In this document: positions 6,729 through 39,590 of the stretch, in pieces
Position numbering within the stretch: position 1 is the stretch's first letter
Layout of the letters: each line of letters starts with the position of its first letter
Notes under the pieces: generated by a model
Databases searched by the model: none
Seen by the model: the letters and a program-made list of their open reading frames with translations, nothing else
What the model was told of the DNA's origin: nothing
NCBI GenBank assembly: GCA_029263175.1
Contig: JAJCXZ010000067.1
Coordinates: 1-51,036, forward strand
Direction: 5' to 3'
Origin: Acidimicrobiales bacterium
Lineage (GTDB): Bacteria > Actinomycetota > Acidimicrobiia > Acidimicrobiales > Aldehydirespiratoraceae
DNA length: 51,036 nucleotides
Made by a program: the position numbers and the translations under genes

Positions 6729-7693
6729 AGGCGGGCTTCCTGGCGGGTGCGGCGTTCGCTGAAGACGATGGCGGCAACCATGATCGCGAGGATGACGCCA
6801 AGGGACACGTAGGTGTCGAGGTGGTACCACTCGCTCGCCGCCATCTTGAGGCCGACGAACACGAGAATCCCGCCGAGGGCGTGGGACAGGTAGTGGAAGC
6901 GTTGCCGGGCGTCGGCGAGCAGGAAGTACATCGCGCGGAGACCGAGGATGGCGAAGGCATTCGATGCGAAGACCAGGTAGGGCTCATTGGAGACGGCGAG
7001 CACAGCCGGCACGGAGTCGACCGCGAAGATCACATCGGTCACTTCCACAACCACCAGCGCGGCCAGGAGCGGTGTGGCCATACGTACACCGCCCCGAACC
7101 GTCAGGAACTTGTGCCCGTCGTATTCATCACTCACGGGCATGATTCGCTTCAGCAGACTGAGCCCGGTCGCAGCCTCGTTCTCACCCTCGTCCTCACGGT
7201 GGCGGATGACGCGGAGACCCGTGACGACCAGGAAGACCCCGAACCCGACCAGCACGATCGAGAACCGTTCGATCAATGCCGACCCGATCAGGATGAACAC
7301 GAGGCGCAGCGTGAGCGCACCGAAGATGCCCCAGAACAACACCCGGTGCTGATAGCGCACCGGCACGGCCATCGTGGAGAAGAGGATCGACCAGACGAAG
7401 ACATTGTCGACACTGAGCGATTTCTCGATCAGGTAGCCCGAGATGTATTCGCCGAACGCGGCACCGCCGAAGCCGATCAGGATCACGACCCCGAAGATCA
7501 GCCCGCACGCCACCCAAGCCGCGGACTCGAGCGCCGCACTCCGGGCCGTCGGCTCGTGGTCATCACGATGCCGATAAAGATCGACGGCAAGCATGGCGAC
7601 AACCGCAACGGCCAGGCCGATCCACCATCGTGTGCCGACATCCAGGTCGACGAAGTTCTCGCGCGACGACTCCGCCGCCGGGACGCCGATCAC
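6725..7693 (-). CDS. TerC-family integral membrane protein
   Basis: A 322-residue polytopic membrane protein with about eight or nine hydrophobic segments. The two TerC metal-site motifs are present: SLSVDNVFVW and EVTDVIFAVDSVPA, both with acidic residues in the membrane. TerC/Alx proteins are linked to metal (Mn/Ca) export and membrane-protein metalation; many are misnamed tellurite resistance proteins. The GTG at 7693 overlaps the upstream GATase stop by four bases (GTGA), which fixes the start and couples it to the catabolic operon. A manganese or iron role beside a metal-dependent extradiol dioxygenase is conceivable but unproven. Confidence 0.85.
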   Translation of the reverse strand: MIGVPAAESSRENFVDLDVGTRWWIGLAVAVVAMLAVDLYRHRDDHEPTARSAALESAAWVACGLIFGVVILIGFGGAAFGEYISGYLIEKSLSVDNVFVWSILFSTMAVPVRYQHRVLFWGIFGALTLRLVFILIGSALIERFSIVLVGFGVFLVVTGLRVIRHREDEGENEAATGLSLLKRIMPVSDEYDGHKFLTVRGGVRMATPLLAALVVVEVTDVIFAVDSVPAVLAVSNEPYLVFASNAFAILGLRAMYFLLADARQRFHYLSHALGGILVFVGLKMAASEWYHLDTYVSLGVILAIMVAAIVFSERRTRQEARL

Positions 7694-8418
7694 GACGGAA
7701 CGGCAACGACCTCGTCGAGGAACCAGTCGACAAGCGCATGGCACTGCTTCTTGTTGCGCTCTTCGTGGAAGTGACCCTCGGCGACCATGTCGGCACGCTC
7801 GACCCCCCACTCGGCGAGGTACTCATCAGTGGCACCCTCGAGGAAGCCGGCCAGGTGCGGCACGTCGACTTCGGGATGGAACTGGGTTCCCACCGTGCGA
7901 CCCATGCGAAACAGCTGGGTGGCGTTGTCGGTGACCGCCAGGATCTCCGCCTCCGCCGGCGGATGGAAACGGTCGTGGTGCCATTCGAGCCATGGACCGG
8001 GGCCGACCGGGTTCTCGCGTCCGCCCACGGCCGACAACTCGTACCAGCCGATCTCGGTGACGGGAGCTGATTCGACAGAGCCGCCGAGTGCATCGGCGAG
8101 CAACTGACCACCGAAGCACACACCGAGCATCGGGATATCGGCCTCGTGGGCCTCACGCAGCAGTTCGAGCTCATCATGGATCCACGATGCGATCTCGTCT
8201 TTGTTGGTGAGCGACCGAACGGAGCCCATCGGAACGATCACGTCGTAATCGCGCCAGTTCTGCGGCCACGGCTGCGCGACGTCGGGTTGGCCGTACTCGA
8301 GCGTGATGACGTGCGTGTCGACCGCGTAGCCGCGCTTGCGTAGTGCCATCTCCACCTGGCCGCCGACGCCATCGGGTTCATGGGCGAGCACGAGTGCTCG
8401 GGGTTGGTGCTCGGTCAC
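7690..8418 (-). CDS. Class I glutamine amidotransferase-like hydrolase
   Basis: A 242-residue stand-alone GATase domain with an intact Cys-His-Glu triad: C101 in MLGVCFGGQLLADALGG, H181 and E183 in QFHPEVD. With no synthetase domain fused, it may hydrolyse gamma-glutamyl amides, like PuuD or the AtdA2/TdnT proteins of aniline pathways, rather than feed ammonia to a synthase. That reading gains weight from the GS-like ligase at 26739, since the two functions are normally paired. It overlaps the dioxygenase gene by four bases (ATGA) and terC by four (GTGA), so it sits in the middle of a coupled minus-strand operon. Confidence 0.85.
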   Translation of the reverse strand: MTEHQPRALVLAHEPDGVGGQVEMALRKRGYAVDTHVITLEYGQPDVAQPWPQNWRDYDVIVPMGSVRSLTNKDEIASWIHDELELLREAHEADIPMLGVCFGGQLLADALGGSVESAPVTEIGWYELSAVGGRENPVGPGPWLEWHHDRFHPPAEAEILAVTDNATQLFRMGRTVGTQFHPEVDVPHLAGFLEGATDEYLAEWGVERADMVAEGHFHEERNKKQCHALVDWFLDEVVAVPS

Positions 8419-9275
8419 ACGTCAAACCATACGTGAGCCTGGCCGGTTCCCGACACCGCTTCGTACTCACCGAATTGTGTTCCCTTGGCAGTGCAGGCCG
8501 CACCGCCGAGTGCGCCGACCATCGTGAGGTAGTGACCGAATCGACCCTCCGGTGCGTGCGTCATGTACTCCGGCACGAAGTCGAGGATGGCCGCGTGGTT
8601 GCCGTCCTTCATCCAGGCGATGACCTGACGGTCGGCGGCGCACGCTTCCGGTGTGCGGAGATGAAGGTCGGGATCAGAGGCTTCGTGATCACGAAACTGC
8701 CGCAACGGCCAGAACCGATGGCTGAGGCCGCCACTGGCCAGGATCACCACGCGACGGTCGACTTGGGCAACCGCCTCAGCGAGCAGTTCACCGAAGAGCA
8801 GGAAGTCGTCGGCCTCTCCGGTCTGCACGATGCCGGCGGAGATCCACGCCTCATCGCCCTGCAGGAACGGAAGCAGGTTGATCGTGGGATAGTTGACCGG
8901 CAGGTACGGGTCGTCGATCGGCGTGATCCACGTGTCGTCGCGGTCCTCGGACAGCGCGCCCCATGCCTCGGCCAGCTCGCGGTCGCCGCGCATGTCGAAG
9001 GGCATCTGACACATACCTCGCGGCAGTTCCTCCGAGGTGTACAAGCCGTGCCGACGGTCGGCCGACGAGACCACATGTTCGATCGTGGTGAACCAGTGCG
9101 AGTCGATCACCACGACAGTGTCGGCCTCGATGGGGCCCAACTTCTCGGCCCGCATGTCGTGCAGGCCCTGGAAGAGAGAGGTGTCCTTCCCCTCGTTCAA
9201 CTCCAACCGAACCTCGAGCGGAAGGACGAGCGGCGGCACGTGCGACACGACGGCCGCGCCAACGATCTCCCCCAT
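8415..9275 (-). CDS. Class III extradiol ring-cleavage dioxygenase (LigB fold)
   Basis: A 286-residue enzyme of the LigB/HpcB/MhpB superfamily, which opens catechol-type rings next to the two hydroxyls using Fe(II) and O2. Likely iron ligands are H12 (VVSHVPP) and H60 (VVVIDSHWFTT); GGLSHRFWP holds a further conserved His near the catalytic pocket. The C-terminal half includes EGRFGHYLTMVGALGGA, typical of the family. The substrate is not evident: 3,4-dihydroxyphenylacetate-like and protocatechuate-like rings are the usual choices. It lies 19 bases after the P450 gene and overlaps the GATase by four bases. The FAH, HpaE-like and HpaI-like genes at 37216-40370 could process its product. Confidence 0.85.
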   Translation of the reverse strand: MGEIVGAAVVSHVPPLVLPLEVRLELNEGKDTSLFQGLHDMRAEKLGPIEADTVVVIDSHWFTTIEHVVSSADRRHGLYTSEELPRGMCQMPFDMRGDRELAEAWGALSEDRDDTWITPIDDPYLPVNYPTINLLPFLQGDEAWISAGIVQTGEADDFLLFGELLAEAVAQVDRRVVILASGGLSHRFWPLRQFRDHEASDPDLHLRTPEACAADRQVIAWMKDGNHAAILDFVPEYMTHAPEGRFGHYLTMVGALGGAACTAKGTQFGEYEAVSGTGQAHVWFDV

Positions 9276-9294: not shown

Positions 9295-10563
9295 TCATGC
9301 GACGACTTTCACGGGCATGCGTTTGATGCCGGCGATGAAGTTGGACCGCAGATGATCGATCTCACCGTTCGGTTCGAGATGGTCGATGCGCTTCATCAGC
9401 TCTTCGAACACGAGACGGACCTCCATACGGGCGAGCCAGGCCCCGAGGCACAGGTGCGGGCCGTTGCGACCGAACGCCATGTGATCGTTGCGTTCACGAT
9501 CCATGTCGAATCGGAACGGATTGTCGAACCCGTCCTCGTCGTGATTGGCCGAGTTGAACCACATCGCGACCTTGTCGCCGGCCTTGATCTGCTTGCCGCG
9601 CATCTCGATGTCGGCGGTGGCGGTGCGGCGGAAGTGCATGGTGACCGAGCTGGTCCGCAGCACTTCTTCCACCGCCTTGTCCATCAACTCGGGGCGAGCG
9701 CGCAGGGTGTGCCAGAGCTCGGGATGATTCATCATGTTCCACACACCGTGGGTCATCGTGTAGCGGGTGGTGTCGTTGCCGGCCGCCACGAGCAGGGTGA
9801 AGAAGTTGTTGAACTCCAGGTCGGTCAACGGCACTCCGTCGACCGCCGGCTCGAGAAGCTGGCTGATGATGTCGTCCTTCGGACAGGCACGCCGATCACT
9901 CGCTTGCTCCTGAGCGAAGCGGAAGATCTCGATCGATGCCGGCGAACGGAATGGAACCATGCGGAACTCATCGGTGTCGACGAGGTCCACCGGAAAGTCG
10001 GTGAACTCCGGGTCGGTGTTACCGAGGAGGGCATCACCCCAATCGACGAGCTGACGGCCGTGCTCGTCACTGGTGCCGAGCAGGCGACCGAGCATGCGCA
10101 TCGGCAGCTCTTCGGCGATGTCGTGAACGAAGTCGAACTCGTCGGTCTGCAAGGCCTTCTCGACCACCTCGGCGGCGAGCTGACGGATCGGCTCCTCGAA
10201 GGTCTCGACGGTGCGACGGGTGAAGCCCTTGTTGACGAGACGGCGGTAGCGAGTGTGCTCCGGCGGGTCCATTTCCATCATCGTCTTGCGAGCCGCGGCC
10301 TCCTCTTCGTCCATGTCCTCGAGGCGGATGCCCTTCTCGGAGGTGAACGTGGCGACATCACGGCTGACCGCAAGCGCGTCGTGGTACTTCAGGATCGACC
10401 AGAAGCCGGTGCCGTCGGCCTCCTCGGTCCAATGGATCGGATCCTCGGCGCGCAGCCGAGCAAACGTCGCGTGAGGAACACCGTCGATGTATGCGTCGTG
10501 CGACGTGATGTCGGCATCGTCGGGGCCGAGGTTGGCGAGATAGTTGTCGGCGTAGGTGCTCAT
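9295..10563 (-). CDS. Cytochrome P450 (operon with ADC-family enzyme and dioxygenase)
   Basis: A 422-residue soluble bacterial P450. The heme Cys lies in FGRNGPHLCLGAWLAR, the ExxR motif in EEVLR, and the I-helix oxygen-activation stretch in VAAGNDTTRYT. The longer frame upstream is ignored: the ATG at 10563 overlaps the stop of the ADC-family gene by one base (TGATG). It would hydroxylate a substrate using electrons from a ferredoxin; none is encoded beside it, and the only ferredoxin in the window is at 29326. It resembles the other two P450s here (for example RMVPFRSPAS versus RLLPFGSPAS) but is the more divergent of the three. Confidence 0.92.
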   Translation of the reverse strand: MSTYADNYLANLGPDDADITSHDAYIDGVPHATFARLRAEDPIHWTEEADGTGFWSILKYHDALAVSRDVATFTSEKGIRLEDMDEEEAAARKTMMEMDPPEHTRYRRLVNKGFTRRTVETFEEPIRQLAAEVVEKALQTDEFDFVHDIAEELPMRMLGRLLGTSDEHGRQLVDWGDALLGNTDPEFTDFPVDLVDTDEFRMVPFRSPASIEIFRFAQEQASDRRACPKDDIISQLLEPAVDGVPLTDLEFNNFFTLLVAAGNDTTRYTMTHGVWNMMNHPELWHTLRARPELMDKAVEEVLRTSSVTMHFRRTATADIEMRGKQIKAGDKVAMWFNSANHDEDGFDNPFRFDMDRERNDHMAFGRNGPHLCLGAWLARMEVRLVFEELMKRIDHLEPNGEIDHLRSNFIAGIKRMPVKVVA

Positions 10564-11378
10564 CACTTCGCTGCCATCGGGTTGGGTGCGGCCCACACGG
10601 TGGTGCCACCGGCCATCGAGTTGCCGACCTGGCGGTAGAAGCCGCCGATCACTTCTTCCACCGGCAGGAGATGGAGCTCCTCGGTTGGGTTGTCGTGGAT
10701 GTCGAGCTCGGCATCGCCGGCGTAGACCGGACCGACCTCCACGTCGAAGCCGCCCATGGTGACGAGCTCGTCGAGAGAGTCACGCCCGTCCATCTCGATC
10801 GCCGGCATCTGGCGGGTGTGCAGCATGGGATGTCCATTGACGAAGCCGGCGGACTCGGTGGTGCCGGTGATGGTGAAGCGGGCATCGGCGATGCGCCGAC
10901 CCCACGTCGACACCGTTGCCCCAAAGCGACCACCCGGCTCGAGGCGGGGACCGGCCTTGCCATGGGTGATGTGGCGGGTCATCCAGATCTCACTCATCTT
11001 CTTCGGGTAGCCCTGCACCACACCACGGGCCATGGCGAAGTCCTTGTCGACCCAGATGTACGCGGCGCGGCTGTAGGTCCTGCCCTCGTACTTCAAACGG
11101 ACGACGAGGAAGACCTCTTTGTACTGCGAGCGGGCCGGGTCGAGGAGCTCCTCGAACGAGTCGGAGCAGCTCTGCCACTCGGCCCAGATCAGCGCACACG
11201 CGCCCGGGTCTTCATCGGCGAGCTGCATGCCATCGGGCAGGAGCGCCGCCACGTTGGCCGGATCGGTGCGGTACTCCACCGTGAGCATCTCACCGGAGTA
11301 GTGCCACGGCGGACCGGGCAGGATGCCGGCCACGCCCGTGGGCGTGCGCGGATACATGAACCCCTGAAGCTCAGCCAT
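10563..11378 (-). CDS. Acetoacetate decarboxylase (ADC)-family enzyme
   Basis: A 271-residue member of the ADC fold. The adjacent lysines K126-K127 in VVQGYPKKMSEIW match the Schiff-base Lys and its neighbour in acetoacetate decarboxylase, so imine chemistry (decarboxylation, hydration or aldol reactions) is likely. Acetoacetate itself is an unlikely substrate given the P450 and extradiol dioxygenase in the same operon; a 2- or 3-oxo acid from ring cleavage is more plausible. It is the first gene of the five-gene minus-strand operon, and its start lies 12 bases from the 20-bp operator at 11391-11410, so it is probably repressed by the MarR protein. Confidence 0.8.
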   Translation of the reverse strand: MAELQGFMYPRTPTGVAGILPGPPWHYSGEMLTVEYRTDPANVAALLPDGMQLADEDPGACALIWAEWQSCSDSFEELLDPARSQYKEVFLVVRLKYEGRTYSRAAYIWVDKDFAMARGVVQGYPKKMSEIWMTRHITHGKAGPRLEPGGRFGATVSTWGRRIADARFTITGTTESAGFVNGHPMLHTRQMPAIEMDGRDSLDELVTMGGFDVEVGPVYAGDAELDIHDNPTEELHLLPVEEVIGGFYRQVGNSMAGGTTVWAAPNPMAAK

Positions 11379-11468: not shown

Positions 11469-12887
11469 GTGACCGACTCTCGAAATCTTCCGACAGCCAT
11501 CGACTTGATGACGGCACTCGAACGCCGCGAAATCTCGGCCCGCGAGTTGCTCCGCGAACATCTCGATGCGGTGGCGGCCCACAATCCCGCGCTCAACGCC
11601 GTGGTCACGCTGGCCGCGGAGCGGGCGGCCGACGAAGCGGCGACCGTCGACGAACGGCGCGCCGCCGGCGATTCTCCCGGCCCACTGGCCGGTCTGCCGA
11701 TCACGATCAAGGACGCTCTGCAGACGGCCGGAATTCGATCCACGGGTGGTGCTCCCGAGCTCGCCGAGAACGTGCCGGACGTCGACGCGCCTGCGGTCGC
11801 GCGGTTGCGTGATGCCGGAGCGGTGGTTTTCGGCAAGACCAACCTCCCCTGCTGGTCGGGTGATGTACAGACATTCAACGACCTGTTCGGCACGACCAAC
11901 AATCCGTGGGACCTGACCCGCACTCCCGGCGGCTCCTCGGGCGGGGCCGCCGCGGCGGTGGCGACGGGCATGACGCCGTTCGAACTGGGCACCGACATCG
12001 GCGGATCGGTGCGCATCCCCGCATCGAACTGTGGCATCTACGGCCACAAGCCGACCTTCGGCGTCATTCCGACGCTCGGTTACCTCGATCATGCCGAAGG
12101 CGGTGACACGGAGGCCGACGTGAACGTCTTCGGACCGCTCACCAGATCGGTCGACGATCTCGAGATGGTCTTCGACCTTCTGGCCGGACCAACTGACCCT
12201 GCTGCTCGGGGTTGGAGCCTCGACCTGCCCCCTGCCGCCGCGACCGAACTCGGCGAGTTTCGAATCGCGGCCTGGCTCGACGATCCGTTCTGCCCGGTCG
12301 ATCCCCGCGTCCGCGCGGTTCACGAACGTGCGCTCGAACGGCTCGAAGCAGCCGGGGCAAAGATCGACCTCGCGCGACCGGAGTTCGATGCCGCCGAGAT
12401 GACCGCAGCCGGTGGACTGCTCATCAGCGCCGCCGCCTCGCCGGTGCTCAGCGCGGCCGAGACTGACGAGGATCAAGGCGACGACCGCCGACTGACGCAC
12501 ATCGAATGGCACCACCTCAACCGGATCCGCATCGCGGGTCGCCGCCAGTGGGCCTCGTTCTTCGAGGGTTACCACATCGTCCTCTGCCCGGTCCTGCCCG
12601 TGGCGCCGATCGTGCATCAGCAGCCGGCGCCGGGCGGCAGCAACTGGGCCGACCCGCTCACCGGCCACGACCGTCCCTACCGCGACCTCATCGGATGGAC
12701 CGCGCTGGTGGGGTCGGCCTACCTGCCCTCGACCGTCGCCCCGCTCGGCCTCACCGACACCGGCCTTCCGGTCGGCGGGCAGATCGTCGGATCGTTCCTG
12801 TCCGACCGCACCACGATCGCCTTTGCCCGCGCCATCGAAGAAGCAGTCGGCGGCTTCACCCCACCGCCGCACGGCACCCCTGACTAG
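11469..12887 (+). CDS. Amidase-signature family hydrolase
   Basis: A 472-residue amidase with the full Ser-Ser-Lys triad: K81 in GLPITIKDAL, the cis-Ser in TPGGSSGGAAAA (S156) and the nucleophile S180 in TDIGGSVRIPASNCG. It would hydrolyse a carboxamide to acid and ammonia. The GTG start has AGGAGA at 11455-11460, eight bases upstream. The neighbouring NicX/NicD-like genes suggest an amide from a pyridine pathway (maleamate, or the starting amide) as one candidate, though known maleamate amidases belong to another family. It ends convergent with the NicX-like gene; the two stop codons overlap in the palindrome CTAG. Confidence 0.88.
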   Translation: MTDSRNLPTAIDLMTALERREISARELLREHLDAVAAHNPALNAVVTLAAERAADEAATVDERRAAGDSPGPLAGLPITIKDALQTAGIRSTGGAPELAENVPDVDAPAVARLRDAGAVVFGKTNLPCWSGDVQTFNDLFGTTNNPWDLTRTPGGSSGGAAAAVATGMTPFELGTDIGGSVRIPASNCGIYGHKPTFGVIPTLGYLDHAEGGDTEADVNVFGPLTRSVDDLEMVFDLLAGPTDPAARGWSLDLPPAAATELGEFRIAAWLDDPFCPVDPRVRAVHERALERLEAAGAKIDLARPEFDAAEMTAAGGLLISAAASPVLSAAETDEDQGDDRRLTHIEWHHLNRIRIAGRRQWASFFEGYHIVLCPVLPVAPIVHQQPAPGGSNWADPLTGHDRPYRDLIGWTALVGSAYLPSTVAPLGLTDTGLPVGGQIVGSFLSDRTTIAFARAIEEAVGGFTPPPHGTPD

Positions 12888-13930
12888 GTCAGGTCGTCTC
12901 GCAACGACCCCGCATCAACGACGACCTCGCCGTCGAGGCTGACAGAACAGTTGCGCATCGGCAGATCGAAATGGCCACGACAGAAGCGGCCGGCGACCTC
13001 GTTGGCGCCGGTGGAAAAAACGACGTTGCCGGCGAACGCCCGCAACTCGGTGCCGTTGATGTCCGCCTTGTCCCACATGGCAAGCGACTCCCAGCGCGCA
13101 CCGGTATTCATGCCCCAACCGATGTGGCTCACGGCGTACGCATCCGGCTCACCAAAGGCGGCGAGGTAGGAGCGCATCAGTTCCGCGTCGTGGCCGTCGC
13201 CTTCGATTTCGGTGACATAGTCGTCGACGACCGTCAGCCTGATCGGCTCGCGGATGTACTCCTTGAAAGTGAGATTGATGTCGCCGGTGTCGAGCACAAC
13301 CGTGCCGTTGATGGTGCCCGCCGCCGGGAACGCCAGCACAAGCCCACCGGGCCAGTGGGCGATGCTGCCCGGCTCGGTGCACCAGCCGTAGGAGCCGGCG
13401 CGGAAAGCCCCCTCGAGATCGACGGTGAGATCAGTGCCGGCGGCCGAGGTGACCTGCATTATCGACGCCGCTTCGATGAGCGCGAGACCGTGGTCGACCC
13501 GGTCGGCGAGGGCCGGATCGTGGGGCCAGCGTTCGACGTTTTCGGGATGCTCGGCCGAGATCATCAGCACGCGAGCCGAGCCGCTCAGGATCTCCCCCAG
13601 CTCAGGCGCGTGAAGCAGACCCTCGGCCGTGCAGTCGACAACGAAGTCGGCCTCACGCAGCGCCGCGATCACCGCTCGATGGCCGGCGATCGCCTGCGAT
13701 GCACCGGTCGATCTGATCGGCAGCGGGCCGGGGTTGGCGGGTGTGGGCATTCGCACGTCGGCGACGGCGGCCCCACACATCTCCAGGGCGAGCCGCGCCG
13801 TCTGCACGATCCGCGCCGAACTGGCTGACTCCGACAACAGCACGGCCACCTCGCCGGCGCGGAGATTGCATGCCTCGAACTGCTCGGCGTAGCGCTTGAC
13901 CCAGCGCCACTCGGCGAGCGAGCCCGTCAT
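12884..13930 (-). CDS. NicX-like 2,5-dihydroxypyridine 5,6-dioxygenase
   Basis: A 348-residue protein of the family that includes NicX, a non-heme Fe(II) dioxygenase cutting 2,5-dihydroxypyridine to N-formylmaleamate. The metal set I recall for NicX (His265, His318, Asp320) has counterparts at the right spacing: H269 in YAVSHIGWGMNTG and H320-x-D322 in CRGHFDLPMRN. The family is distantly related to M29 aminopeptidases, the main alternative annotation. ATG 13930 overlaps the stop of the preceding gene by four bases (ATGA). It is the last gene of a three-gene operon that starts with a NicD-like hydrolase, the next enzyme of the same pathway, which supports the call. Confidence 0.75.
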   Translation of the reverse strand: MTGSLAEWRWVKRYAEQFEACNLRAGEVAVLLSESASSARIVQTARLALEMCGAAVADVRMPTPANPGPLPIRSTGASQAIAGHRAVIAALREADFVVDCTAEGLLHAPELGEILSGSARVLMISAEHPENVERWPHDPALADRVDHGLALIEAASIMQVTSAAGTDLTVDLEGAFRAGSYGWCTEPGSIAHWPGGLVLAFPAAGTINGTVVLDTGDINLTFKEYIREPIRLTVVDDYVTEIEGDGHDAELMRSYLAAFGEPDAYAVSHIGWGMNTGARWESLAMWDKADINGTELRAFAGNVVFSTGANEVAGRFCRGHFDLPMRNCSVSLDGEVVVDAGSLRDDLT

Positions 13931-15096
13931 GTTTCCCCATCCTCGTAGAGACCGGAACGGCTGAGCCGCTCGAGACAAACCTCGACACTCCAGGGGAGCA
14001 TCGTGGCACCGCAGCGAGCGTCACGGTAGGCACGCTCGATGAAGCTTGGACGCAACATAGAACGTCCACCGCACACGCGCACGGCGAGCGACGCCATCTG
14101 GGGCGCGCCCTCCATCGTCGTCACGAGCGAGCTCATGGCCCGGCGAACCTGCGCGGGCGACGGATCGAGCTGCACTTCGCCGAGCACCCGATACAGGAGG
14201 GCCTGCGCCTGTTCGTAGATGAGGTTCATCTCCGCCCAGCCCTGCTGCTTCATCGGGAGATCGCGACGGCCGCTCTTGGTGAGGTAGTCGGCGGTGAAGT
14301 CGAGGATCGCCCGCATCAACCCAACGTAGGAGAACGAGAGCGTCATGAAGAAGTACGGGAACCGGTCGGCCGACTGGTTGAAGTGGCCGGGCGGCAGCCA
14401 CTCCTGCTCGGCGGGTACGAAGACCTCGGTCATCACCATGTCGCGCGAGTCGGTGCCCCGCATTCCGAGTGGGTCCCATTCGCCGATGATCTCCACACCC
14501 TCTCCGCGGTGGGGCACACCGAGCATGCGCACGCGGTCGTCGCCTTCCACCATCGCCAACACGTTGTGGAAGTCCGCCGCGCCCGCCAGTGAGGCAAAGA
14601 TCTTTTTGCCCGAGACGCGATAACCGCCAGCCACCGGTGTCGCTCGGGTGGCGTATCCGGCAGTGGCGCTCGCCTGCGCTCCCTCGGAGAAGGGCTGGCT
14701 GTGGATGTGCTGCTCCTCGACGATCCCCTTCCATATGAGCCGCCGACGGGCATCGAGGAACTCCTGGGCTTCGGCGTCCATGTCGAGCTGGCCACCGATT
14801 TCCCCGACCAGCAAGGTGGTGGCCACGTGCATGTTGAACGTGAGCGCCGTGCTCGCGCAATGCCGACTGAGCTCTTCGGACGCCAATGCATAAGCCACGA
14901 AGTCGCCGCCGAGCCCCCCGGCCTCCTTCGGAATGCAGATGGCGAGGAGCCCAGCCGCCTTGAGGTCGTCCCAGTTCGCATACGGGAACGACGCCGATCG
15001 ATCGAGCTCCTCGGCCCGAGCCGCCATCGCCGGACCGATCTCGGCGACCTTGTCGATGATGGCGACTCGCTCGGGCGTGTGCAACGGACTACTCAT
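13927..15096 (-). CDS. Acyl-CoA dehydrogenase-fold flavoprotein, probably a monooxygenase
   Basis: A 389-residue protein with the acyl-CoA dehydrogenase fold (N-terminal helical domain, central beta domain, C-terminal helical domain). Where true dehydrogenases have the catalytic (Y)EGT stretch after RDAR, this protein reads CGATMLPWSVEV, so that base is missing. The typical FAD/substrate loop T-E-P-x-A-G-S is also absent. The same fold without the base is used by two-component flavin monooxygenases (HpaB/HsaA/DszC type), and ring hydroxylation just before a NicX-like dioxygenase would make sense. No flavin reductase is obvious in the operon. Start and stop overlap both neighbours (8 and 4 bases). 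Confidence 0.72.
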   Translation of the reverse strand: MSSPLHTPERVAIIDKVAEIGPAMAARAEELDRSASFPYANWDDLKAAGLLAICIPKEAGGLGGDFVAYALASEELSRHCASTALTFNMHVATTLLVGEIGGQLDMDAEAQEFLDARRRLIWKGIVEEQHIHSQPFSEGAQASATAGYATRATPVAGGYRVSGKKIFASLAGAADFHNVLAMVEGDDRVRMLGVPHRGEGVEIIGEWDPLGMRGTDSRDMVMTEVFVPAEQEWLPPGHFNQSADRFPYFFMTLSFSYVGLMRAILDFTADYLTKSGRRDLPMKQQGWAEMNLIYEQAQALLYRVLGEVQLDPSPAQVRRAMSSLVTTMEGAPQMASLAVRVCGGRSMLRPSFIERAYRDARCGATMLPWSVEVCLERLSRSGLYEDGET

Positions 15097-15910
15097 TGGC
15101 TCCTCTTTCGTTCAGGAATTCGACGACCAGTTTGTTGAAGCGGTCGGGATCCTCGGCCGGCGAAAGATGCCCGATGCCGTCGAGCACTTCGAATCGACTG
15201 TCGGCGAGGCCGTCGTGGAGCACTTGGGCATAGCTCGGCGGCGTCTCACGATCGAGCTCGCCCACGATGACGAGCGCAGGGTTCCGGATCTCTTGCAGCT
15301 GATCGCGGACGTCGTTCGTCGGAAGGCACTCGACCGCAGCGCGGAACCCTTCCGGGGAGATCTGGCTGAAGCAACCGATCGTCTCGTCACGAATCTGCCC
15401 AGTGAGTGCGACGGCCGTGACGGCATCGACGATCCGCTCGGCATCGTCAGCCGGGGTACCACCATTCTCCAGGGCTGCGAGACGGTCACGCATCCAGTCT
15501 TCGCGAGTGGTGCCGTCCATGCCAAAGGCGGGGCTGGTATCGGCGAGCACGAGTCGGCCTACACGTTCGGGGTGACCGATCGCAGCATGTAGCGCGTGCA
15601 TGCCCCCGAACGAGAGGCCGACGAAGTCAGCCGTCTCGGCGTCGATGACGTCGAGGAGGTCGACGAGACGAGCCGCGATGCCGGGAAAGTCGAGTGGGGC
15701 CAGGGGCTCGGCATCCCCGTAGCCCGGCATGTCCCAGGCAACACATCGGTAGTGCGCCGACAACGCTCGTAACTGCGGCCCCCACGCTGATCGGGTGCCG
15801 CCGAGGCCGTGAAGGAAGATCACCGGCGGACCCTCTCCGGCCTCACGCCACGAAAGCCCGTCCTGTCGATGGTCGCTCCACCCAACCGTGTCAGATGCAG
15901 CCTGCCCCAT
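15089..15910 (-). CDS. Alpha/beta hydrolase, NicD-like (N-formylmaleamate deformylase candidate)
   Basis: A 273-residue alpha/beta hydrolase with nucleophile S100 (GLSFGGMHAL), D124 (RLVLADTS), H248 (GIGHLSPAED) and oxyanion segment FLHGLGG. NicD of the nicotinate pathway has, as I recall, Ser101, Asp125 and His245, an almost identical spacing, and acts right after NicX. 3-Oxoadipate enol-lactonase and other C-C hydrolases look similar, so the substrate stays open; the NicX-like partner two genes downstream favours deformylase. It is the first gene of the minus-strand trio. A paralogue lies at 30995-31810. It diverges from the aminotransferase gene across 101 bases. Confidence 0.78.
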   Translation of the reverse strand: MGQAASDTVGWSDHRQDGLSWREAGEGPPVIFLHGLGGTRSAWGPQLRALSAHYRCVAWDMPGYGDAEPLAPLDFPGIAARLVDLLDVIDAETADFVGLSFGGMHALHAAIGHPERVGRLVLADTSPAFGMDGTTREDWMRDRLAALENGGTPADDAERIVDAVTAVALTGQIRDETIGCFSQISPEGFRAAVECLPTNDVRDQLQEIRNPALVIVGELDRETPPSYAQVLHDGLADSRFEVLDGIGHLSPAEDPDRFNKLVVEFLNERGANE

Positions 15911-18955: not shown

Positions 18956-19009
18956 AGTGGCTGAATTGTTTCCCTTGCCACCACTGACGAAACGTGAAAC
19001 TGTGTTTTT

Positions 19010-19015
19010 TATACA
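19010..19015 (+). promoter_or_regulatory. Candidate -10 element for the ABC importer operon
   Basis: TATACA lies in an unusually AT-rich stretch (about 18991-19020) in an otherwise GC-rich region, directly upstream of the operator at 19020-19039 and 69 bases before the binding-protein ATG. No convincing -35 box sits at normal spacing. If this is the promoter, the operator would overlap the transcription start. Confidence 0.4.
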
Positions 19016-19019
19016 AAAG

Positions 19020-19039
19020 ATCGTTTGTTCCCGAACGAT
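19020..19039. promoter_or_regulatory. Predicted MarR operator before the ABC importer operon
   Basis: ATCGTTTGTT/CCCGAACGAT: the outer six bases on each side are perfectly symmetric and match the arms of the site at 37127-37146, while the centre deviates. It lies between a candidate -10 element and the binding-protein gene (start 19084), a position suited to repression. Confidence 0.65.
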
Positions 19040-19083
19040 CACCCGGTCTAGCGTTCGCGGACCAATATCTGGAGGGATTCCCA

Positions 19084-20322
19084 ATGAAGTTCAAGTTCCT
19101 GATCGCGTTGCTCGCGGTCTTCAGTCTCGTTGCCGCAGCCTGCGGGGATGACGACGCCGACACCGGCGCCGGTGATTCCGGCGGCACCGAGTCCGGGGGC
19201 GACGGCGCCGGTCTCGACATCGACGCCATCCTCGCCGCAGACCTCGACGCCTGCGAAACCGCCCCAACCGGTGACCCGATCAAGGTCGGCATGGCGATGG
19301 ACTTCTCTGACGTCGTCGGCTTCGTCGACATCCCCGGCTCGAAGCTCGTCCCCTACATCGCGGAACTGGCGAACTGCAACGGCGGAATCAACGGCCGTCC
19401 GGTCGAAGTCCAGGTTGCCGAGGTCGGCGACGACGCCTCCCTCGCCGCTCAGGAGCTCCTCGACTGGGGCGCACACTTCCTGATCGGCCCGCCCTTCGCC
19501 GACTTCGCGCTGCCGATCCTTCAGGCCACTGAAGGAAACGTCCCGCTGTTCGTGGCCGCCTCGACCGAGCCGACGCTCGCCGACGCCTCGATCAACTCCT
19601 GGCTCGTGACGTTCGACGACAACCTGATGGCCGCGGCCGCCGCCCAGTGGGCGCTCGACAACGGCATCACCCGCGCCATCCTCTTCACCGAGGGTGAGGG
19701 GGTGCCGTACACCGGCGTCAACCCCGATGCCTTCAAGGCGCACTTCGAGGCCAACGGTGGCACAGTCGTCAGCGAGCAGACCTACGTCTGGGCCGCGGAC
19801 ACCGACTTCTCCGCTCAGGTCAACGAGATCGCCGGTATCTCCGAGAACAACGAGATCGTGTACTCGGCCGCCCTCGGCTTCCAGGTCACGGCCCTTCGGG
19901 GCCAGCTCGAAGGCCAGGGCCTCGACGGCCTGACCTACGCGGGCACCGACGCCCTCGATGCCACTGGCATCCAGTTCGAGGACAACAACGAAGGCATCGT
20001 CCACACCCCCCACGTGAGCATCGCGGCGGGCGACCGCAACGACGCCATGCTCGCCGGCTACGAAGCCGCCAAGGGTGAGGCACTCGAGAGCCGCGGCTTC
20101 ATGCCGCTCTACGTCGACTCCATGTTCCTGGGCATCCAGGCCATGCTCGACTGTGGCTGTGACGACCCGAGCCAGATCGGTGACGCCGTCGCCGCCATCT
20201 CCGGCTTCGAAGGTCTCTCCGGCACGATCACCTACGCGGGCACCAACGGCATTCCGCCGAAGGCAGTCCCGATCAACCAGATCGTTGGTGGCGAAGACAC
20301 GCTCGTCGACACCATCGGCTGA
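19084..20322 (+). CDS. Branched-chain amino acid-type ABC transporter substrate-binding lipoprotein
   Basis: A 412-residue periplasmic-binding-protein type I (Leu/Ile/Val-binding fold) receptor anchored by lipobox LVAAAC at about residue 20. Family features include KVGMAMDFSDVVGFVDIPG near the N-terminus and the NCNGGINGRPVEVQ segment. GGAGGG at 19071-19076 is 7 bases before the ATG and rules out the longer frame upstream. Such receptors in catabolic clusters often bind aromatic acids, amides or short-chain compounds rather than amino acids. It is the first gene of a seven-gene operon controlled by the predicted operator at 19020-19039. Confidence 0.92.
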   Translation: MKFKFLIALLAVFSLVAAACGDDDADTGAGDSGGTESGGDGAGLDIDAILAADLDACETAPTGDPIKVGMAMDFSDVVGFVDIPGSKLVPYIAELANCNGGINGRPVEVQVAEVGDDASLAAQELLDWGAHFLIGPPFADFALPILQATEGNVPLFVAASTEPTLADASINSWLVTFDDNLMAAAAAQWALDNGITRAILFTEGEGVPYTGVNPDAFKAHFEANGGTVVSEQTYVWAADTDFSAQVNEIAGISENNEIVYSAALGFQVTALRGQLEGQGLDGLTYAGTDALDATGIQFEDNNEGIVHTPHVSIAAGDRNDAMLAGYEAAKGEALESRGFMPLYVDSMFLGIQAMLDCGCDDPSQIGDAVAAISGFEGLSGTITYAGTNGIPPKAVPINQIVGGEDTLVDTIG

Positions 20323-20343
20323 GCTAGTTCAGGCTGAACAACC

Positions 20344-21054
20344 GTGCTCGAAGTTGCGGGACTCACAACCAAATACGGTGCGATCTCCGCACTTCGAGAT
20401 GCAACGCTGACCGTCGGGTCCGGTGAGGTCATTGGCCTCATCGGACCCAACGGGGCAGGCAAGACAACCTTGCTGAACTCAGTTGCCGGGCTGCTCGACC
20501 CGGCGGCGGGCAGCATCAGCTTCGACGGGGTCGACGTCACCGGCTCCTCGCCCGAGAAGCTCCTGCGCGCCGGGCTGGCGCTGGTCCCCGAGCACCGACG
20601 CATCTTCACCGACATGACGGTGGAGGAGAACCTCAAGATCGGCGGCATCACCCGATCCGCTGCCGATCGCGCGTCCGACCTCGACGAAATGGCCGAGCTC
20701 TTCCCGGTCCTGCGGGACAAGTGGACGACTGCCGCCGGCTTCTTGTCCGGCGGCGAGGCGCAACAGCTCGCCATCGCTCGCGCCCTCATGTCGCGTCCCA
20801 AGCTGCTCATGATGGACGAACCGTCGCTGGGGCTCGCACCGATTCTCGTCGACGTCGTCTTCAATCTGATCGCCACTCTCAGGGAGCAGGGCCGCACCCT
20901 GCTCGTCGTCGAGCAGAACGCCACCCGGATGCTGGCCGCTTCCGACCGGGCCTACGTGCTGCGCAGCGGCGAGATCGTCGCCACCGGCACCGGCACCGAA
21001 CTCAGCGGCCGCGACGACCTGTTCGACACCTTCGTCGGCGGCGCCGGGGCCTGA
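20344..21054 (+). CDS. ABC transporter ATPase, LivF type
   Basis: A 236-residue ATPase with Walker A GPNGAGKTT, signature FLSGGEAQQLAIARAL and Walker B LLMMDEPSLGLAP. The last motif (SLGLAP) marks the LivF rather than the LivG class. It starts with GTG 21 bases after the binding-protein gene; a 13-bp near palindrome (20327-20339) lies in that gap. LivF pairs with the ATPase domain fused to LivM downstream to power import. Confidence 0.9.
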   Translation: MLEVAGLTTKYGAISALRDATLTVGSGEVIGLIGPNGAGKTTLLNSVAGLLDPAAGSISFDGVDVTGSSPEKLLRAGLALVPEHRRIFTDMTVEENLKIGGITRSAADRASDLDEMAELFPVLRDKWTTAAGFLSGGEAQQLAIARALMSRPKLLMMDEPSLGLAPILVDVVFNLIATLREQGRTLLVVEQNATRMLAASDRAYVLRSGEIVATGTGTELSGRDDLFDTFVGGAGA

Positions 21055-21055
21055 C

Positions 21056-21943
21056 GTGATCGAACTTCTCCAGAACCTCATCGACGGACTGGGTCGAGGC
21101 AGCATCTACGCCCTCCTGGCCTTGGGCGTGGCCGTCATCTTCGGCGTCATGCACCTTCTCAATTTTGCCCACGGTGAGCTCATCACCGTTGGCGGCTACG
21201 CGGCCTACGCCGCGTCGAACCAGGGCTGGTCCTGGTACGTCATCACCCCGCTGATCATCGTCTGTGCAGTCGGCGCATCACTCCTCATCGAGCGCATCGC
21301 GTTCAGCCGGGTCCGTGGTGCCTCCGACTTCACCTTGTTGCTGACGTCGTTCGGCGTGCATTTCGTGGTGTCGGCGATCTTCCTCCTCTATGTCTCTGCA
21401 TCGGTGAAGACGTTCTCCCGACCAAGGTGGGTCACCAACACATACTCGGTGGGCTCGCTCAACATCGAAGTCTTCGACACCGTGGTGATCGTCGTCACGG
21501 TCATCACCTTGCTCGCCACCACGTGGCTCCTGCAGCGCACCATGTTCGGACTCGCCCTTCGCGGCGCCGCCGCCGATTTCGACACTGCTCGCCTCATGGG
21601 CGTGAAGTCCGACTCGGTCATCCGCGGCGCCTTTGCCCTGAGCGGCCTACTCGCCGGAATCGCCGGGGTGTTCTGGCTCATGCGCTCCGGTTCGACCACA
21701 CCCAGCGCCGGTATCGACCCGATGCTCAGCGGCGTGCTCGCCGCGCTGATCGGCGGCCTCGGCTCCCTCCGGGGCGCCGTGCTCGGTGGATTCGTGCTCG
21801 GGCTCGCCGAGGTGCTGCTCCGATCCCGCCTTCCCGACGGCATCGCCCCGCTCACCGACGGTGTCGTGTTCGTACTCATCGCCTTGCTCTTCATCTTCCG
21901 TCCCCAAGGCCTGATCACCGTGGCTCATGCGGAGCGTGTGTGA
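21056..21943 (+). CDS. ABC transporter permease, LivH type
   Basis: A 295-residue polytopic membrane protein. The N-terminal GRGSIYALLALGVAVIFGVMHLLNFAHG and the loop GSLRGAVLGGFVLGLAEVL are hallmarks of LivH permeases. It starts with GTG one base after the livF stop and ends overlapping the next gene by one base (TGATG), so the genes are coupled. With the LivM part of the next gene it forms the membrane channel. Confidence 0.9.
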   Translation: MIELLQNLIDGLGRGSIYALLALGVAVIFGVMHLLNFAHGELITVGGYAAYAASNQGWSWYVITPLIIVCAVGASLLIERIAFSRVRGASDFTLLLTSFGVHFVVSAIFLLYVSASVKTFSRPRWVTNTYSVGSLNIEVFDTVVIVVTVITLLATTWLLQRTMFGLALRGAAADFDTARLMGVKSDSVIRGAFALSGLLAGIAGVFWLMRSGSTTPSAGIDPMLSGVLAALIGGLGSLRGAVLGGFVLGLAEVLLRSRLPDGIAPLTDGVVFVLIALLFIFRPQGLITVAHAERV

Positions 21944-26738: not shown

Positions 26739-28088
26739 ATGACCTCATCGACTCAACCACTGACCACTGACGAATTCCGTACGCAGTGCCGCGAGGCCGG
26801 TGTGCACACCGTGGAGGTCGCGACTCCTGACACGCAGGGACACCTGCGAGGCAAGCGCGTTCCCGTCGATCGCTTCTTCGAGACGACCATCACCGGCGGC
26901 TGCAACATCGCCGACGCCATGTTCGTCTTCGACATGCAAAACGATCTGCCCGACAACGAATTCGTCAACCCCGAGACCGGCTACCTCGACTGCAAACTGA
27001 TGCCCGATGTGAGCGCCGGTCGGATCCTCTCTCACCGTCCGGGCTACGCCATCGTGTTCGCCTCAGTGGAGGACCCACACGGCAACCCCCATCCGTTGTC
27101 GCCCCGCAACGTGCTGGCCGACCAGGTCGCCCGGCTCAACGACCAGGGCCTCGACCCCTTCGTGGCAACCGAGCTCGAGTTCTACCTGCTCACTCCCGAG
27201 TTTGAAGCCGTGCAGAACCACATCCAGTACAGCTCGCTGACCGACATGATCGAGCTCGAGCCGGTGCTCCACGACATGCGCGATGCGATCGCAGCAGCGG
27301 GCATCGAGGTCGAATCGTCGAACTATGAGTACGGCCCCGGTCAGGTCGAGATCAACTGCGGACCGGCCGACGCCATGCGCACCGCCGACAACACCGTCCT
27401 GTTCAAGTCGATCGTGAAGCAGATTGCCGTGCAGCACGGCTACCGGGCAACATTCATGCCGAAGCCATGGACGGAGCAGTCCGGCTCGGGCATGCACGTC
27501 CATACCTCACTCAACACCGATGGCTCCAACGCCTTCGCCAGCTCCCAGGGAGCACCCAACGAAATCATGGGCCATTGGCTCGGTGGCCTACTCGAGCACG
27601 CCCTTGCCATGACGCTCATCGGTGCGCCCACGCCGAACGGCGGGCGGCGAATCCGTCCCTACACCTTTGCCCCCACCCATATCCACTGGGGCCTCGACAA
27701 CCGCAGCGTGCTCGCCCGCTGCATCTGTGAAGGGGGCAGCCCCAACCGGGTCGAGTACCGCTCCGCCGGGGCCGATGCCCACCCGCACCTGATCATCGCG
27801 TCGATCTTGGCTGCCGGGGCCGACGGCGTAGAGCGCAAGCTGTCGATCCCGCCGATGAGCGAGGGCGACATGTACGGCAACCCCGGCGACAATGTCGCCA
27901 TCCCGACCGATCTCGCCGGCGCGCTGGCTGCGTTCGAGGGGTCGGCGCTGGCCGGAATGCTGGGGGAGGTCTTCTCCCGCAGCTACGCATCCATCGCCGC
28001 GGCCGAAATCCCCATGGCCGTCGAGAACAACCCTGACCCCGACGAGGTCAACAACTGGGAGCGCGAGCGCTTCATCGAGCACAGCTGA
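26739..28088 (+). CDS. Glutamine synthetase-like gamma-glutamyl-amine ligase
   Basis: A 449-residue GS-family ligase. Catalytic signatures are intact: ATELEFYLL (metal Glu pair), YGPGQVEINCGPADA (metal Glu), GSGMHVHTSL (metal His) and NRVEYRSAGADAHPHL (Glu/Arg of the ATP and glutamate site). Family members with this C-terminal motif (PuuA, IpuC, AtdA1/TdnQ, the GS-like protein of morpholine clusters) attach glutamate to an amine rather than make glutamine, and the P450/ferredoxin context supports this. It starts the nine-gene operon, with AGGTGA (26727-26732) six bases before the ATG, and overlaps the next gene by one base. Confidence 0.85.
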   Translation: MTSSTQPLTTDEFRTQCREAGVHTVEVATPDTQGHLRGKRVPVDRFFETTITGGCNIADAMFVFDMQNDLPDNEFVNPETGYLDCKLMPDVSAGRILSHRPGYAIVFASVEDPHGNPHPLSPRNVLADQVARLNDQGLDPFVATELEFYLLTPEFEAVQNHIQYSSLTDMIELEPVLHDMRDAIAAAGIEVESSNYEYGPGQVEINCGPADAMRTADNTVLFKSIVKQIAVQHGYRATFMPKPWTEQSGSGMHVHTSLNTDGSNAFASSQGAPNEIMGHWLGGLLEHALAMTLIGAPTPNGGRRIRPYTFAPTHIHWGLDNRSVLARCICEGGSPNRVEYRSAGADAHPHLIIASILAAGADGVERKLSIPPMSEGDMYGNPGDNVAIPTDLAGALAAFEGSALAGMLGEVFSRSYASIAAAEIPMAVENNPDPDEVNNWERERFIEHS

Positions 28089-36616: not shown

Positions 36617-37117
36617 TCAGTCGGCGTTGTTGATGACGACGCGGAGGAGGCGGGCGAGCTCGTCCTTCTCGGGATCGCTGAGACCGCCGACCATTTCCGC
36701 CTCGAACTGGTTGAAAAGGGGGAAGACGTCTTCGATGGTGGCCAGACCGACATCGGTCAGAGAGACCACGACACGGCGGCGGTCGAACTCGACTCGGTCT
36801 CGGCGGACCAGATCCTGCTTCTCGAGTGTACTCAGAAGGCCGGTCAGCGTGCCCTTGGCAAGATCGCACTCGGCCGCCAGCTGCGCCGTTTCCATCTCGC
36901 CCCAGACCCACAGCACCCAGAGAGCGGTGAAGCCGCCCCATGACAGGTTCCGTTCAGCGAGTACGGTGCGCTCGGCTCGGCGGCGAACCGCGGCCGCGGC
37001 GCGATAGATGTTGGAAATCGCCTGCAGGGAGCGGAAGTCGAACGGTCGATCGCCGAGAGCAGCCTGAATGTCGCGTTCAGCGTCGAGCACGCTCTCGTCA
37101 GCTTCTGTGTCGCTCAC
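36617..37117 (-). CDS. MarR-family transcriptional regulator
   Basis: A 166-residue winged-helix regulator: dimerisation helices at both ends, HTH in METAQLAAECDLAKGTLTGLLSTLEKQDLV, and a wing in RDRVEFDRRRVVVSLTDVG. The frame continues upstream, but GTG 37117 gives a normal MarR length and leaves the 98-bp divergent gap free for two 20-bp operators (37127-37146 and 37172-37191), the first only 9 bases from this start. MarR proteins usually repress their own and the neighbouring gene until a phenolic or CoA-thioester ligand binds. Matching sites at 11391 and 19020 suggest a wider regulon. Confidence 0.88.
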   Translation of the reverse strand: MSDTEADESVLDAERDIQAALGDRPFDFRSLQAISNIYRAAAAVRRRAERTVLAERNLSWGGFTALWVLWVWGEMETAQLAAECDLAKGTLTGLLSTLEKQDLVRRDRVEFDRRRVVVSLTDVGLATIEDVFPLFNQFEAEMVGGLSDPEKDELARLLRVVINNAD

Positions 37118-37126
37118 CGTGACCCA

Positions 37127-37146
37127 ATCGTTCGGTCCCCAACGAT
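37127..37146. promoter_or_regulatory. Predicted MarR operator proximal to marR
   Basis: ATCGTTCGGT/CCCCAACGAT: the outer six bases of each arm are perfectly inverted. It begins 9 bases from the proposed marR start, so binding would block its transcription or early elongation (autoregulation). Confidence 0.7.
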
Positions 37147-37171
37147 AGGCGACACATCGATTCCGACAGGA

Positions 37172-37191
37172 ATCGTTCGGTGCCAAATCAT
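37172..37191. promoter_or_regulatory. Predicted MarR operator proximal to the FAH gene
   Basis: ATCGTTCGGT/GCCAAATCAT: the same left half as the marR-proximal site with a variant right half. It ends 24 bases before the FAH-family start, where it would overlap that gene's promoter. The two sites are 45 bases apart start to start, roughly four helical turns. Confidence 0.68.
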
Positions 37192-37215
37192 TTTCGGATC
37201 GACTACGTTGTACCG

Positions 37216-38097
37216 ATGACCGAGTACCGACGGATTCTGCTCGATGGCTACCCCTGCGAGGTCGTGCGCGACGGCGAGGAGCTCGTCGCCAATGACGGGC
37301 GCCGGGTCGCCATCACCGATGCCACCCACCTGTCACCGGTGGAGCCCACCAAGATCATCTGCATCCACCTCAACTACAACAGCCGCGTCGACGAGTTCAT
37401 GACCAAGCTGCCCGCGGCGCCGACCTACTTCCACAAGCCCATCACTGCGCTGTGCGGGCACGAAGCCGACGTCGTACGCCCCGAGGGTTGCGAGTGGCTC
37501 AACTACGAGGGCGAGATCGCCATCATCATCGGCAAGACCTGCCGCAACGTGTCACCTGAAGAAGCGGGTGACTACATCGCCGGCTACGCCGTGAGCAACG
37601 ACTACGGCTTGCACGACTTCCGCGACACCGATGCAGGCTCGATGCTTCGGGTCAAGGGCAGCGACACCCTGTGCCCCGTGGGTCCCGGAATCGTCACCGA
37701 CTGGGATTTCCGCGGCAAGCGCATCCAGACCATCGTCAACGGCGACGTGAAACAAGACGCCACCACCGACGAGATGCAGTGGGACATGCACTACATCGTC
37801 GCGGACATCGCCCGCACCATCACACTGGTGCCCGGTGACATTCTGCTCTCCGGCACGCCGGCCAACTCGCGCACCGTTTACCCGGGAGACGTCGTCACGG
37901 TGAAGGTCGAAGGTCTCGGTGAGCTCACCAACACGATCGTCACCGGCCCTACGCCGATCCGCACCGATGTCGGCGCTCAGGTGTCACGCTCCGAAGAGGT
38001 CATGTCGACGGCCCAAGGCGGCGATTGGGAGTTCCGCGGCATCCGCTCTCCCCTCGGCCCCGGCGCCGAGCACTACAAGAGCAAGCTCGATGATTGA
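37216..38097 (+). CDS. Fumarylacetoacetate hydrolase (FAH)-family enzyme, HpcE/HpaG-like
   Basis: A 293-residue FAH-fold enzyme. The divalent-metal residues E98 and E100 (NYEGEIAIIIG) and D129 (YAVSNDYG) are present, as is PGDILLSGTP. Members hydrolyse, decarboxylate or isomerise 2-oxo-hept-ene-dioates in homoprotocatechuate and other meta-cleavage routes, or hydrate related oxo acids. ATG 37216 is preferred over the longer frame because the latter would run through the operator. It overlaps the aldehyde dehydrogenase gene by 8 bases, and with it forms a two-gene operon ending at the hairpin at 39552. Confidence 0.85.
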   Translation: MTEYRRILLDGYPCEVVRDGEELVANDGRRVAITDATHLSPVEPTKIICIHLNYNSRVDEFMTKLPAAPTYFHKPITALCGHEADVVRPEGCEWLNYEGEIAIIIGKTCRNVSPEEAGDYIAGYAVSNDYGLHDFRDTDAGSMLRVKGSDTLCPVGPGIVTDWDFRGKRIQTIVNGDVKQDATTDEMQWDMHYIVADIARTITLVPGDILLSGTPANSRTVYPGDVVTVKVEGLGELTNTIVTGPTPIRTDVGAQVSRSEEVMSTAQGGDWEFRGIRSPLGPGAEHYKSKLDD

Positions 38098-39559: not shown

Positions 39560-39587
39560 CCCTGGGGCCAGTCCCAGAGTTGCGTAG
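39552..39587. terminator. Terminator between convergent ALDH and aldolase genes
   Basis: Inverted repeat with arms 39552-39566 and 39573-39587 (13 of 15 Watson-Crick pairs; of the other two positions one can wobble-pair on either strand's RNA) and a 6-base loop. The ALDH stop TAA (39557-39559) lies in the left arm, as in the other two stop-embedded hairpins. Confidence 0.7.
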
Positions 39588-39590
39588 CGT

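Follow-up and report, generated by a model that had tools for sequence, protein, structure and literature searches.

A NicX-fold dioxygenase with partner genes of its own: a predicted ring-opening module of Acidimicrobiales, Kineosporia and Hyphomicrobiales plasmids

Does a dioxygenase that resembles the ring-cleaving enzyme of nicotinate breakdown act on the same pyridine when it is encoded away from the nic genes? This question is raised by three minus-strand genes on contig JAJCXZ010000067.1 of an Acidimicrobiales bacterium (assembly GCA_029263175.1), of which the whole analysed stretch of 51,036 nucleotides is referred to here as the window. The trio encodes an alpha/beta hydrolase, a protein of acyl-CoA-dehydrogenase fold and a NicX-like dioxygenase (Table 1). 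The open reading frames 12884-13978, 13927-15096 and 15089-15910 are present as described in a first-pass annotation, which had proposed that a dihydroxypyridine is hydroxylated, opened and deformylated by their products. The current analysis suggests that the trio is probably a ring-opening toolkit related to the enzyme that cleaves the ring of vitamin B3 breakdown products, and that it serves another, probably amine-bearing, ring compound; the latter is favoured because the substrate-reading residue is changed and the gene partners differ from those of nic clusters.

The dioxygenase matches no Pfam or NCBIfam family at an E-value of 0.001, and its sole significant sequence match in the PDB is NicX (E-value 1.5e-53), to which it is about 33% identical. 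The AlphaFold2 model of the protein, with a mean predicted local distance difference test (pLDDT) value of 84.5, superposes on NicX with template-modelling (TM) scores of 0.84-0.89, against 0.47-0.59 for M29 aminopeptidases. A second structural comparison, by VIA-align, gives a Z-score of 42.9 with NicX (root-mean-square deviation 2.3 over 341 residues) and 20.5 with M29, and its table contains no other fold covering the whole model. As judged from the model the protein is of the NicX fold and not of the M29 fold, and the NicX-type fold and Fe(II) site of the earlier proposal are borne out; a position among the M29 aminopeptidases, which would have contradicted that proposal, is not what the comparisons give. 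The longer form of its reading frame begins with TTG; the true start is most likely the ATG at 13930, because this codon and the stop codon of the middle gene share an ATGA and residues 1-18 of the longer form have pLDDT values below 50. With this start the metal set H269, H320 and D322 of the first-pass annotation is correctly numbered and is equivalent to NicX H265, H318 and D320. The hydrolase and middle genes overlap by 8 bases.

According to the study on NicX of P. putida KT2440 (7cn3, 7cup; PMC7910607), the iron is held by H265, S302, H318 and D320, R293 positions D320, and Glu177 bonds N1 and O1 of the substrate and so recognises its ring N-H and 2-OH, the E177A variant retaining 2.7% of the activity. 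All four iron ligands are kept in the window dioxygenase, as are R293, H105 and H189. In a residue alignment of 48 trio-clade rows (including the identical pairs L016/L054 and L022/L055) and 10 nic-context rows, H265, S302, R293, H189 and H105 are each conserved in 48/48 trio-clade rows, H318 in 47 (L031 stops at a contig end) and D320 in 46 (L031 again, and L024 with Glu). Position 177 is occupied by Ser in 43 of the 48, the window among them, by Thr in four and by Gly in one, and never by Glu; Glu is equally absent from position 308, the gate residue of NicX (Val in the window). Both positions are Glu in 10/10 nic-context rows. H105 is no marker of the trio clade because the nic-context rows vary there (Phe in 8/10), nor is Cys76, replaced by Gly in the window, where the nic rows vary too.

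A maximum-likelihood tree places 46 trio rows in one clade (support 100/100), the 10 nic rows in a separate one (97/93) and the Janibacter proteins in a third (100/99); the join of the trio and nic clades is supported at only 90/68, with a warning of long branches from the program. The duplicates L001 and L085, L024, L031 and the distant or short rows L074-L076, L078 and L080-L082 were left out of the tree. The trio dioxygenases do not fall within the clade of the nic-context enzymes.

Other NicX relatives have also been identified. A further NicX-like clade (L059-L073), with as many as four matches in a single Acidimicrobiia genome, retains H265, H318 and D320 and has S302 replaced by Ala, R293 by Glu and Glu177 by Gln in 15/15 rows. 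The NicX-like protein of Janibacter (L040-L042) carries Gln177 and Phe308, and its gene in L041 stands in a run with those of a LigB dioxygenase, a CN_hydrolase and an Amdase-family (maleate-isomerase-like) protein. On a plasmid of Variovorax SRS16 (L094:1302-7442), a NicX relative in which Glu177 is present is encoded alongside a Rieske oxygenase with an adjacent amidohydrolase-family gene, and an isochorismatase-family gene.

The same trio is found in other actinobacteria, namely in Acidimicrobiales and Kineosporia. Dioxygenase relatives are encoded in 41 loci, which extend to Hyphomicrobiales plasmids (Ensifer, Aminobacter, Shinella, Sinorhizobium). Five of 396 sampled genomes of the phylum have a dioxygenase match at an E-value of 1e-60; among them G486 (locus L125) shows no trio partner and another match is only 39% identical. 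Gene neighbourhoods were counted as relatives within 10 kilobases (kb) at 47 trio loci and nine nic loci, the nic queries being taken from those nic loci. The three Janibacter loci (34% identity, own clade) are outside the trio counts, the 4-kb loci L054 and L055 are outside the neighbourhood and arrangement counts, L125 is among the 47 though it has neither of the partners, and several trio loci end at contig ends. The monooxygenase-like gene is present at 44 of the 47 and the hydrolase gene at 39, with both at 38 and neither at any of the nine nic loci; the monooxygenase gene lies on the same strand as the dioxygenase gene and at most 400 bases from it in 38/47. Since 41 loci encode dioxygenase relatives and the partner genes go with the dioxygenase, the recurrence of the trio is far beyond chance.

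The nic genes are distributed in the opposite manner. NicF, NicD and NicC relatives occur at none of the 47 trio loci, NicE and NicB at one each, against eight (NicF), eight (NicD), seven (NicE), five (NicC) and three (NicB) of the nine nic loci. Nicotinate hydroxylase, NicE and NicF genes had already been stated to be missing nearby, and no relatives of them lie within 10 kb of the trio in the window and hardly any in the related loci; the trio lies outside nic clusters. In the genome of the window the NicF and NicE relatives are weak, the best by E-value being 32% and 29% identical, and lie on other contigs. The other neighbours at the 47 loci include LigB (14), P450 (14), an acetoacetate-decarboxylase-fold (ADC-fold) protein (13), a binding protein (11), a PuuD-like hydrolase (10), an amidotransferase (10) and tryptophan dioxygenase (3). 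Kynurenine-formamidase-like and tryptophan-dioxygenase-like genes are found beside the Shinella trio, and fragments related to the former persist in Ensifer (L045:22800-26398 and L043:22803-23383).

The middle protein has N-terminal, middle and C-terminal acyl-CoA-dehydrogenase domains in Pfam. In the PDB, 5gj7 and 5z8t match its sequence best, with 138 bits against 77 for the next entry, and the first nine Foldseek rows comprise 5z8t, 5gj7, two KijD3 entries, four TdsC chains and one nitrososynthase, so that eight of the nine are monooxygenases or nitrososynthases. KijD3 is an N-oxygenase. The fold is shared with 5z8t, 5gj7, TdsC/DszC, KijD3 and the nitrososynthase 3mxl, although the identity in the structural alignments is 20-29%. 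As had been noticed, the usual Glu of the dehydrogenases is missing, and a near-invariant M-L-P-W segment occupies its place. The nearest sequences and structures (5z8t, TdsC, KijD3) uphold the flavin-monooxygenase-like partner of the earlier proposal, and the protein most likely serves as the oxygenase component of a flavin monooxygenase of two-component type. Flavin reductase relatives occur within 10 kb at 7/47 trio loci, three from Kineosporia and a close relative (L034, L036, L037) and four from Hyphomicrobiales (L043, L044, L045, L087), with the PF01613 domain confirmed in L037 and L045; the genome of the window has three copies, all on other contigs. No paper naming 5gj7 or 5z8t was found in the open-access library searched. 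An orphan on a Dolichospermum plasmid (L086:9001-10248) is 41% identical to the middle protein, with M-R-P-W at the same place and no annotated trio partners within 9 kb.

The hydrolase had been described as NicD-like with the set S100, D124 and H248. Its Ser and His are at the same places as in the alpha/beta hydrolases NicD and NdpF, the N-formylmaleamate deformylases, and these two assignments stand; the acid and the likeness to NicD do not. The window hydrolase is 17-21% identical to eight proteins at the deformylase place of nic clusters, six of which are 52-69% identical to Sphingobium NdpF and one, from Peribacillus, 29%. All 14 aligned trio-type and window hydrolases (the window's own two included) have D220, and three of them, from Hyphomicrobiales, are without D124 yet retain D220; the eight nic proteins have D124 and no acid at 220. 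Because D220 is present in 14/14 and D124 is missing in these three, the catalytic acid is most likely D220, as predicted from the alignment, and D124 is rejected. The oxyanion motif begins with His (HG) in the 14 and with Pro (PG) in the eight, and the identification with NicD is ruled out by the low identity, the other acid and the other motif. In NCBIfam the window hydrolase comes nearest to enol-lactonases of PcaD type, at scores below cut-off. The Shinella hydrolase bears an N-terminal Polyketide_cyc2 domain.

We predict that the trio is a hydroxylate-cleave-hydrolyse module for a substrate other than 2,5-dihydroxypyridine, probably amine-derived, and assign this reading a probability of about 0.5. 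Using reduced flavin supplied by a separate reductase, the middle protein would hydroxylate the ring, the dioxygenase, with its predicted fold and metal site, would then cleave the hydroxylated ring with O2, and the hydrolase, with a classical Ser-Asp-His set, would split the cleavage product. Gene linkage suggests that the substrate probably originates from an amine, either aromatic or heteroaromatic, and that a glutamine-synthetase-like enzyme converts the amine nitrogen to a gamma-glutamyl conjugate. As Glu177 reads the pyridine ring, 2,5-dihydroxypyridine is unlikely and a carbocyclic 2,5-dihydroxy ring conceivable. A more specific version, which we regard as doubtful and put forward tentatively, is that the NicX-fold enzyme has switched substrate, from pyridines to a carbocyclic ring of the 2,5-dihydroxy (hydroquinone) type, and acts in concert with a para-hydroxylase of acyl-CoA-dehydrogenase fold and a PcaD-like hydrolase to open a gamma-glutamylated arylamine ring; such a shift is conceivable because the loss of Glu177 removes the reader of the ring N-H. 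If true, it would represent aromatic-amine breakdown with ring opening by neither a Rieske nor an extradiol dioxygenase, common to Actinobacteria and Hyphomicrobiales plasmids.

The linkage concerned is that of a glutamine-synthetase-like ligase, found within 10 kb at 31/47 trio loci and at 0/9 nic loci, with one type (c3) at 25 of the 47. Of the 28 trio loci whose flanks reach 5 kb in either direction, 20 have a ligase, and those without one are the window, L004, L006, L007, L008, L014, L085 and L125. The c3 ligase is encoded in 22 of 296 genomes of the class (E-value 1e-80), including all six with a trio-clade dioxygenase (E-value below 1e-120), and in four of these six the ligase and dioxygenase genes are adjacent by coordinates. 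In the genome of the window a c3 ligase (68% identity) shares contig C49 and its neighbourhood there with a P450 and a PuuD-like hydrolase. The pairing of ligase and trio may have arisen more than once, to judge from the ligases of the actinobacterial and Hyphomicrobiales loci, because these are only 24-25% identical to each other. PDB relatives of the ligases give no substrate, being mostly deposited as glutamine synthetases with a few exceptions such as one glutamate-methylamine ligase and a type III ligase. The work on aniline catabolism via gamma-glutamylanilide (AtdA1/AtdA2; PMC4539516) provides a precedent for ligase, amidotransferase and oxygenase together. The likeness is one of gene kinds, a glutamine-synthetase-like ligase and a glutamine-amidotransferase-like protein beside oxygenase genes, whereas the trio loci have a P450, a flavin monooxygenase and a NicX-fold dioxygenase.

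A number of observations weigh against this reading. The three genes are contiguous on one strand in only 23/47 loci with gaps of at most 400 bases and in 26/47 with gaps of at most 1300, and in 12 of the 38 loci with both partners they are split by a LigB-P450-ADC block or are partly divergent (L012, Kineosporia). No ligase is present within 10 kb at 16/47 trio loci, including the window, where a second type of ligase (c10) is 12.8 kb from the trio and the c3 ligase is on another contig. The hypergeometric probability of the 6/6 against 22/296 co-occurrence, 8e-8, is uncorrected for kinship (three of the six share a family) and assumes that both surveys of class genomes drew the same 296; the ligase of G051 shares only 43% identity and is encoded on a different contig. 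With respect to the middle protein, 5z8t is titled a flavin-containing monooxygenase but 5gj7, the second Foldseek row, is deposited as a putative acyl-CoA dehydrogenase, and the tenth row, a putative isovaleryl-CoA dehydrogenase, is succeeded by further dehydrogenases with comparable TM scores. The missing Glu is a weak sign of a monooxygenase, because other acyl-CoA-dehydrogenase-like proteins in the alignment are also without it. No flavin reductase (PF01613) is found among the 37 window proteins scanned against Pfam.

Among the alternatives, a different N-heterocyclic ring is possible though rather unlikely; examples would be a substituted pyridine or a compound formed from tryptophan or kynurenine. 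The NicX relatives with known substrate act on a pyridine, and a tryptophan-dioxygenase-like gene with a kynurenine-formamidase-like hydrolase is near the trio in L027, L029 and the Shinella locus L045; however, these are only 3/47 loci, the genes may form a separate operon in Shinella, and the residue of NicX that binds the ring N-H is lost. Homarine was also considered as an origin; no homarine gene cluster is among the literature matches listed, which settles nothing.

A variant of the nicotinate-type pathway, which would produce 2,5-dihydroxypyridine, open it to N-formylmaleamate and then remove the formyl group, is improbable. The conserved fold, iron site, R293, H105 and H189 would agree with it, but Glu177 and Glu308 are replaced in every trio row, the hydrolase is not NicD, the NicD, NicF and NicC genes are missing from all 47 loci with NicE and NicB nearly so, and the genome of the window offers only the weak NicF and NicE relatives mentioned above. 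The chemistry proposed in the first-pass annotation is accordingly not retained. It is still more improbable that the trio performs a biosynthetic or detoxifying oxidation and no ring-opening catabolism; nitrososynthases are among the nearest structures of the middle protein, but uptake genes of ATP-binding cassette (ABC) type, P450, LigB and hpa-like catabolic genes surround the trio. An M29 peptidase can be given almost no credence, as the record name 'peptidase M29' of the Ensifer and Aminobacter relatives and the distantly shared fold are outweighed by the structural scores, the sole PDB sequence match and the kept iron ligands.

In steroid catabolism the succession of HsaA, HsaC and HsaD likewise combines a monooxygenase of acyl-CoA-dehydrogenase fold with a dioxygenase that cleaves the ring and an alpha/beta hydrolase. 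By analogy, the trio resembles the nic or HsaA-HsaC-HsaD modules in its predicted logic and is no member of the nic system. None of the titles or opening lines of abstracts listed from the open-access library searched describes this module. NicX is described in PMC7910607 as defining a subtype among ring-cleaving dioxygenases of its kind, with no activity reported beyond 2,5-dihydroxypyridine. A clade with the NicX iron site, without the pyridine-reading residue and with its own recurring partners makes what else this fold cleaves directly testable, and is present in uncultured Acidimicrobiales as well as in named Kineosporia and Shinella strains. The automatic names 'peptidase M29' and '2,5-dihydroxypyridine 5,6-dioxygenase' can thus mislead in both directions.

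Table 1. Coordinates of the trio and of the genes around it in the window
Feature	Position	Strand	Remarks
Alpha/beta hydrolase, trio gene 1	15089..15910	(-)	most likely triad S100, D220, H248; nearest PcaD and meta-cleavage-product hydrolases
Acyl-CoA-dehydrogenase-fold protein, trio gene 2 (middle)	13927..15096	(-)	most likely oxygenase half of a two-component flavin monooxygenase
NicX-fold Fe(II) dioxygenase, trio gene 3	12884..13930	(-)	iron ligands kept; NicX Glu177 replaced by Ser, Glu308 by Val
Amidase-signature amidase	11469..12887	(+)	convergent with trio; clustered relative near trio in L002, L025, L026
ADC-fold protein, MppR-like	10563..11378	(-)	208 bits against cut-off 380
Cytochrome P450	9295..10596	(-)	relatives near trio in 14/47 loci
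LigB-type extradiol dioxygenase, HpaD-like	8415..9275	(-)	115 bits against cut-off 316
Class-I glutamine amidotransferase-like protein	7690..8418	(-)	relatives near trio in 10/47 loci
Branched-chain-amino-acid-type ABC uptake genes (binding protein, ATPase, permease)	18994..21943	(+)	
Glutamine-synthetase-like ligase, second type (c10)	26739..28088	(+)	
Hpa-like block	36617..41788	(+); MarR and HpaI-like on (-)	MarR regulator, HpaG-like, HpaE-like, HpaI-like, pyridoxal-phosphate (PLP) decarboxylase

The window is probably a larger aromatic-degradation region with the trio as one module of it, as its HpaD-, HpaG-, HpaE- and HpaI-like genes, MarR regulator and PLP decarboxylase suggest; the four Hpa-like matches are all below the NCBIfam cut-offs. 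The hpa-like meta-cleavage genes are divided over the window, between 36617-41788 and 8415-9275. An origin from tyramine, dopamine or homoprotocatechuate, an idea based on the hpa-like genes and PLP decarboxylase sharing the locus, was not adopted, the trio occurring without LigB and P450 in Kineosporia and Hyphomicrobiales. The ABC uptake genes directly adjoin the dioxygenase gene in relatives such as L012. Relatives of the ligase, P450, LigB and decarboxylase also cluster in trio-less stretches of Acidimicrobiia such as L122 and L123, and groups of ligase, P450, LigB and ADC genes without the trio are found in these two as well as in L121 and L128.

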